IMG/VR virus record: IMGVR_UViG_3300044993_000080
Location: 20,417-84,416 of that record
Reading direction: 5' to 3' (one strand)
DNA from: a virus
Length of the DNA: 64,000 nt
Positions 59,535-59,574 of this stretch are shown in pieces. The notes beneath the pieces are model-generated. The model was given only the letters and a program-made list of their open reading frames with translations. It was not told the origin of the DNA and searched no databases. The position numbers and the translations under genes are program-made. Positions within the stretch are counted from its first letter, which is position 1, and the number at the start of each line of letters is the position of its first letter.

Positions 59535-59574
59535 GTCCGGCTGGCATCACTTATCGAGAGGGTGCCAGCCGGAC
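59535..59574 (-). promoter_or_regulatory. 12-bp perfect hairpin presenting an anti-leader loop
   Basis: GTCCGGCTGGCA (59574-59563) pairs with TGCCAGCCGGAC (59546-59535). The 16-base loop reads CCCTCTCGATAAGTGA on the minus strand, complementary to the leader TATCGAGAGGG type. It lies between the AAA+ stop and the next start, beside a second hairpin (GCGGTGTG/CACACCGC, 59579-59607). Confidence 0.75.

Follow-up and report, generated by a model that had tools for sequence, protein, structure and literature searches.

Intercistronic hairpins with phage-specific anti-leader loops 3' of an AAA+ gene: a candidate antisense riboregulator

Background

What is the role of a perfect hairpin placed directly 3' of a phage AAA+ ATPase gene, when its loop reads as the complement of the leaders of other genes of the same phage? 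A preliminary description of this hairpin (hairpin A) had proposed a kissing-type antisense contact, in which a stem presents the loop to leaders of several genes, that of the AAA+ gene included. It covered one of two adjacent hairpins and missed the other (hairpin B). Both hairpins, the leaders that their loops fit and the corresponding loci of related phages are analysed here. The window is the whole stretch of DNA analysed (64 kb); the virus record that it comes from has 84,416 bases.

Methods

Six phages were compared: the window phage (W), IMGVR 3300000976_000012 (G1), a 96-kb contig within the Paracoccus sp. MKU1 assembly (G2), IMGVR_UViG_3300034044_000040 (G5), Rhizobium phage vB_RleS_L338C (KF614509; KF) and Rhizobium phage RHph_I4 (I4). 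KF and I4 are close relatives of each other and so do not count as independent among the six. W was handled as the reverse complement of the entire record, such that a W position equals 64001 minus the window position. The closest named relatives of the window phage were the two Rhizobium phages, the rest being IMG/VR contigs and the Paracoccus contig. No new close relatives were recovered from ~780 alphaproteobacterial genomes or by DUF1257 in viral contigs, and a search for distant relatives by AAA+ alignment was discarded, as it returned generic AAA+ genes. Gene starts in all phages were taken from a simple gene finder written for this analysis.

A duplex-energy threshold for loop-leader pairing was tried and abandoned; with long loops it was too permissive, and signal could not be separated from background. 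For this reason contiguous, exact 8-mer complementarity to own versus foreign leaders was adopted. The score used to rank non-coding hairpins was the count of own leaders with an exact 8-mer complement to the loop, less the count for foreign phages, and the scan was repeated with wider controls. Scanning of the window phage for anti-leader 9-mers was limited to the mRNA strand because a scan of both strands mostly gave the reverse complements of the leaders themselves.

Results

The AAA+ gene is followed by a 98-bp spacer, the 213-aa gene and a DUF1257 gene (Table 1). The order AAA+ ATPase, unknown gene, DUF1257 gene (window 58333-61316, minus strand) also occurs in relatives, with DUF2997 next in RHph_I4 and in plasmid p7. 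The spacer was predicted to fold into two clean hairpins with open loops (-43.5 kcal/mol, z = -5.7). A coding function for it was considered and rejected, and Rfam searches of the spacer gave chance-level matches only, none at gathering level. The perfect 12-bp stem and 16-nt loop previously described for hairpin A are present: the plus strand reads GTCCGGCTGGCA-TCACTTATCGAGAGGG-TGCCAGCCGGAC, and the loop on the minus (coding, mRNA) strand is CCCTCTCGATAAGTGA. A discrete sRNA released from hairpins A and B would need processing, since no T-run follows them.

Table 1. Positions of the hairpins, genes and leader motifs in the window
Feature	Position	Strand	Remarks
Hairpin A	59535..59574	-	perfect 12-bp stem, 16-nt loop CCCTCTCGATAAGTGA, complementary to TCGAGAGG-type leaders
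Hairpin B	59576..59608	-	10-bp stem, loop TGTGATCTCCCTT, complementary to AAGGGAGAT-type leaders; adjoins hairpin A
AAA+ ATPase gene	59613..61316	-	GTG start; phrog_8638, Pfam AAA; hairpins A and B directly 3'
Sigma70-like promoter of AAA+ gene	61349..61384 (extent approximate)	-	TTGACA-N17-TAGGTT
AAA+ leader motif ATCGAGAGGG	61337..61346	-	predicted in loop of small hairpin GTCCTAATCGAGAGGGAC; 10-nt complement of loop A
Gene downstream of hairpins A and B	58873..59514	-	213 aa, no known family
Leader of gene 14699, TCACTTATCGAAAGGG	14709..14724	-	15/16 complementary to loop A
Leader of gene 51350, TATCGAGAGGG	51362..51372	-	11-nt complement of loop A
TCGAGAGG leader motif	5504..5511	-	
TCGAGAGG leader motif	6812..6819	-	gene just downstream of candidate sRNA
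TCGAGAGG leader motif	10994..11001	-	
TCGAGAGG leader motif	13555..13562	-	
TCGAGAGG leader motif	27256..27263	-	
Candidate free-standing sRNA	6860..6976 (inferred ends, about 117 nt)	-	loop TTTCCCTCTCGACAAGGTTT, third anti-leader copy

Leaders of the window phage are short cassettes, in which a TTGACA-N17 promoter is followed by TCGAGAGGAG or TCGAAAGGGAGAT with the Shine-Dalgarno sequence and then by the start codon. The motif TCGAGAGG is enriched in the window (10 copies, 2.6 expected; 0 of 100 shuffles), and a second subclass of leaders, AAGGGAGATT, is the one to which loop B is complementary. Loop A fits eight leaders and loop B five; jointly they fit all 11 listed motif leaders of the window phage. 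Within the non-coding mRNA strand of this phage, only loop A, loop B and the loop of the candidate sRNA are complementary to several leaders. One leader, at about 41755-41781 (minus strand), carries the sense motif in a hairpin loop, GGCCCG-TTGCCGAGAGGAGAG-CGGGCC, and is a possible kissing partner of anti-leader loops.

The individual matches proposed for loop A were recovered. Fifteen of the 16 bases of its complement TCACTTATCGAGAGGG agree with the leader of gene 14699 (14 of 15 had been claimed), and this leader is the sole non-self site in the 84-kb record with at least 14 matches. The decamer ATCGAGAGGG is exact in the leaders of genes 61316 and 51350, and the complementarity to the AAA+ gene's own leader extends over 10 nt (third among 106 leaders), a match that needs the longer 5' region of that leader. 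A kissing (loop-loop) geometry is predicted for the AAA+ leader, where the motif lies in the loop of a small hairpin, though not for all targets. When loop A was shuffled, 0 of 1000 sequences exceeded 13/16 against any leader; with its core fixed and the seven flank bases randomised, 3 of 1000 reached 15. The number of leaders fitted by loop A was reached by 0 of 300 shuffled loops. Loop B taken alone is weakly specific, its count being reached by 10 of 300. Pairing energies of isolated loop A with the leaders were about -14 to -23 kcal/mol, a range that excludes the cost of opening structure.

Loop-leader complementarity is phage-specific and is conserved over the six phages though the stems have diverged. 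The leader motif is GTCGAAAGGGAA in G1, GTCAGAGA in G2, GTCAGATA/GAGAAAGG in G5 and CGGAGAACCACC in KF and I4. Loops in the AAA+ spacer are complementary to the phage's own leader motif in G1 (TTCCCTTTCGTC), KF (GGTGGTTCTCCG) and I4 (TGTGGTGGTTCTC); the spacers of KF and I4 have a common loop core, GGTGGTTCTC, within stems that differ in sequence. The spacer loops of G2 (CCGTTCGACA) and G5 (TCCCTTTCGATGAATGG) track the AAA+ leader, which deviates from the consensus of its own phage, and match few other leaders. The preliminary description would have been contradicted by relatives that keep the stem and lose the match of loop to leader; the opposite was found, with stems that differ and loops that track their own leaders.

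In all six phages the top-ranked non-coding hairpin was an anti-leader hairpin. It lay in the AAA+ spacer in four (own versus foreign leaders: W 8 vs 0.5, G1 10 vs 3.25, KF 16 vs 1.0, I4 18 vs 0.5) and outside it in G2 (14 vs 4.25) and G5 (6 vs 1.0). The observed count was reached by 1 of 300 shuffled loops for each of G1, KF loop b, I4 loop a and I4 loop b. No comparable AAA+-spacer hairpins were found in the relatives p7, HJ05, L075, G3, G4 and G6, nor, by inspection, at AAA+ neighbourhoods of Rhodobacter, Agrobacterium JP1, Pseudomonas and Mycobacterium phages and plasmid p7.

The candidate sRNA is the only anti-leader copy with its own promoter (TTGACA-N17-TAACTT, at about 6983-7011) and intrinsic terminator (stem 6866-6902, then T6). 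As described before, the first 12 bases of loop A differ from its element CCCTCTCGACAAGG (window 6944-6931, minus strand) by one mismatch. Its scores against Rfam were below cut-off (ar7, 26.1 bits vs 60; c4-2, 13.7 bits vs 41). Anti-leader hairpins were also observed elsewhere in the relatives. In G5 a tandem hairpin pair at 50234-50310 presents the anti-leader loop CCTTTCTCGTCTGACATAGTAGAAC; it follows a 149-aa gene that resembles window gene 51350. An 11-bp hairpin of G2 (57040-57086) has the loop ACGGTCTCCTCCTCCCTGTCTGATC, which includes CCTCCTCCC, the alpha-r14 motif, and matches 14 leaders of G2 itself. At 90093-90122 RHph_I4 carries a terminator-like hairpin, GGCCCGCCGG-TTCTCCCCTT-CCGGCGGGCC, with an anti-leader loop and a T-run after it.

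Two further features of the window phage were recorded. A phage tmRNA at window 23225-23661 (minus strand) matched the Rfam alpha_tmRNA and permuted tmRNA models, and ARAGORN gave the tag ANDNPQETALRLAA; no tmRNA was found by ARAGORN in the parts of the relatives scanned, and G1 79063, considered as a tmRNA, was dropped after ARAGORN found none. A palindrome of the type TTGCAACNNGTTGCAA recurs in intergenic DNA upstream of many promoters in several phages of this set and looks like a DNA operator.

Discussion

The relatives have different leaders with correspondingly different loops, and the spacer therefore looks like an RNA switch that would lower a gene set jointly. The reading that we favour, at a probability of about 0.6, is that the AAA+ 3' spacer is a phage antisense riboregulator, carried on the AAA+ mRNA, that covers the Shine-Dalgarno regions of the mRNAs in a leader regulon, among them its own. 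Loop A would pair with the TCGAGAGG leaders of promoter-proximal genes, the AAA+ leader among them, and loop B with the AAGGGAGAT leaders; the loops would nucleate pairing at the Shine-Dalgarno region, and ribosome entry or initiation would be blocked. Build-up of the AAA+ transcript, or of a processed fragment, would lower translation from every leader of the set, that of the AAA+ gene included, and the repression would be reinforced by the candidate free-standing sRNA, whose anti-leader loop is the same. From sequence and predicted folds we infer the expression and stability of the RNA, its action in trans, its processing, the repression and its timing.

The AAA+ gene's own leader ranked between first and fifth for one spacer loop in 6/6 phages (W 3/106, G1 1/122, G2 1/117, G5 1/119, KF 4/167, and I4 5/162 with 16 ties), ranks that are mildly favoured because the better of two loops per phage was taken. 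These ranks agree with the feedback in the favoured reading. Together with the loops of G2 and G5, which follow deviating AAA+ leaders, they would also suit a purely cis feedback, in which the 5' leader of their own AAA+ mRNA is the sole partner of the loops and the other matches are by-products of a common leader cassette. We consider such a restriction unlikely: the best fit of loop A is gene 14699 (15/16), KF loop b, I4 loop b and W loop B match the regulon consensus much better than they match the AAA+ leader (AAA+ ranks 26, 30 and 8), and the AAA+ unit does not include the candidate sRNA or the hairpins G5 50234 and G2 57040.

If the action were on DNA, a phage protein would bind the leader motif as an operator near +1, and the hairpins would be further copies of it in inverted orientation. 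The distance of the motif is narrow to both the start codon and the -10 box in W, G1 and G2, where the motif mostly starts 6-8 nt past the -10 box, as an operator might. In KF and I4, however, the motif is tied to the start codon (sd 1.2-1.4 nt) and not to the promoter, its distance to the -10 box being variable (sd about 5). Flanking stems of 9-13 bp are not needed by an operator, and the non-Watson-Crick stem pairs are G-U on the mRNA strand, not A-C (few cases, judged by eye). An operator is quite improbable, though conceivable for W taken alone; the start-codon-tied motif of KF and I4, and strong stems that are unrelated in sequence, favour RNA pairing at the translation initiation region over a DNA operator.

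The hairpins might also be ordinary intercistronic ones, stabilising or punctuating the mRNA, with loops that are anti-Shine-Dalgarno by chance or in a generic way. C- and T-rich loops do pair weakly with many leaders, and the modest specificity of loop B alone would fit this, but own-versus-foreign specificity is seen in six phages, against margins of 1-4.1 in the control genomes G3, G6, HJ05 and p7 and of 6.5 in G4, where promoter repeats fall in the leader window. The largest margins in a scan of reversed polarity were 8.3 in G1 (an uncalled leader) and 6.6 in G2. Complementarity moreover reaches past the Shine-Dalgarno core (TCGA, AACCACC), and we give this explanation little credence. That the opposite strand is the functional one, its loops carrying the sense leader and acting as decoys that capture an antisense RNA or RNA-binding protein, is most improbable: some leaders do display the sense motif in hairpin loops (the AAA+ leader and that at about 41755-41781), which makes a loop-binding factor conceivable, but 106 of the 113 genes called in the window phage are on the minus strand, the sRNA candidate shares the polarity of the loops and the stem wobbles favour the mRNA strand.

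Beyond the antisense riboregulator of the window phage, a wider proposal is put forward tentatively, at somewhat less than even odds: an alphaproteobacterial phage lineage may run an RNA-only post-transcriptional switch made of tandem hairpins in one mRNA spacer and satellite sRNAs, with a private leader code in each phage that its promoter-proximal genes have in common and with which these RNAs pair, co-evolution of loops and leaders, and one loop of each pair feeding back on its own mRNA.

Comparison with known systems

In architecture the locus resembles the rhizobial alpha-r14/NfeR1 sRNAs and in principle phage c4 RNA; it matches no Rfam family. The alpha-r14 sRNAs (NfeR1; 'cuckoo' RNAs of rhizobia) have several hairpins that present the same anti-Shine-Dalgarno motif unpaired on differing stems, and silence multiple targets by pairing at translation initiation regions (PMC10746234). 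Here, likewise, two tandem hairpins and the hairpin of the candidate sRNA have anti-Shine-Dalgarno motifs unpaired, with stems divergent between phages. Unlike alpha-r14 RNAs, which are host chromosomal, free-standing and carry the generic CCUCCUCCC, the elements described here are phage-borne, two of them lie in an mRNA spacer, and their loops reach past the Shine-Dalgarno sequence into phage-specific leader sequence and vary by phage. The ultraconserved CCUCCUCCC is absent from the window loops CCCTCTCGATAAGTGA, TGTGATCTCCCTT and TTTCCCTCTCGACAAGGTTT and was found only in the G2 hairpin at 57040; Rfam models of alphaproteobacterial sRNAs gave no match at gathering score.

The c4 antisense RNA of phages P1 and P7 has loops complementary to the ribosome-binding-site region and blocks translation (PMC12197685). 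The putative RNA described here would also be a phage RNA with loops complementary to the ribosome-binding region. It differs in facing about a dozen leaders, where c4 acts mainly on a single target, ant, and has an immunity function. No ant-type target is present downstream, the neighbours being the AAA+, 213-aa unknown and DUF1257 genes, and the Rfam c4 models gave no gathering-level match. SdhX is a 3'-UTR-derived sRNA carried downstream of a coding sequence (PMC6393394). The putative regulatory RNA is likewise downstream of a coding sequence; it differs from 3'-UTR-derived sRNAs such as SdhX in that hairpins A and B have no terminator T-run after them.

No precedent for a phage anti-leader RNA regulon was found in the open-access literature, and phage sRNAs so far mostly have one or few targets or are host-directed (review PMC12197685). 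By contrast, the loops of a single spacer here match an entire set of phage leaders, a fit that persists while stems and leaders diverge between phages. The isolated Rhizobium phages vB_RleS_L338C and RHph_I4 allow direct testing, and, if the antisense reading is right, the lineage would offer natural orthogonal leader/anti-leader pairs. In phage T4, early mRNAs are shut off post-transcriptionally by the proteins RegA and RegB. The presumed logic here is alike, a class of phage mRNAs being shut at their ribosome-binding sites, but it would work by RNA pairing instead of proteins and, if true, would be the RNA counterpart of protein-based early shut-off.
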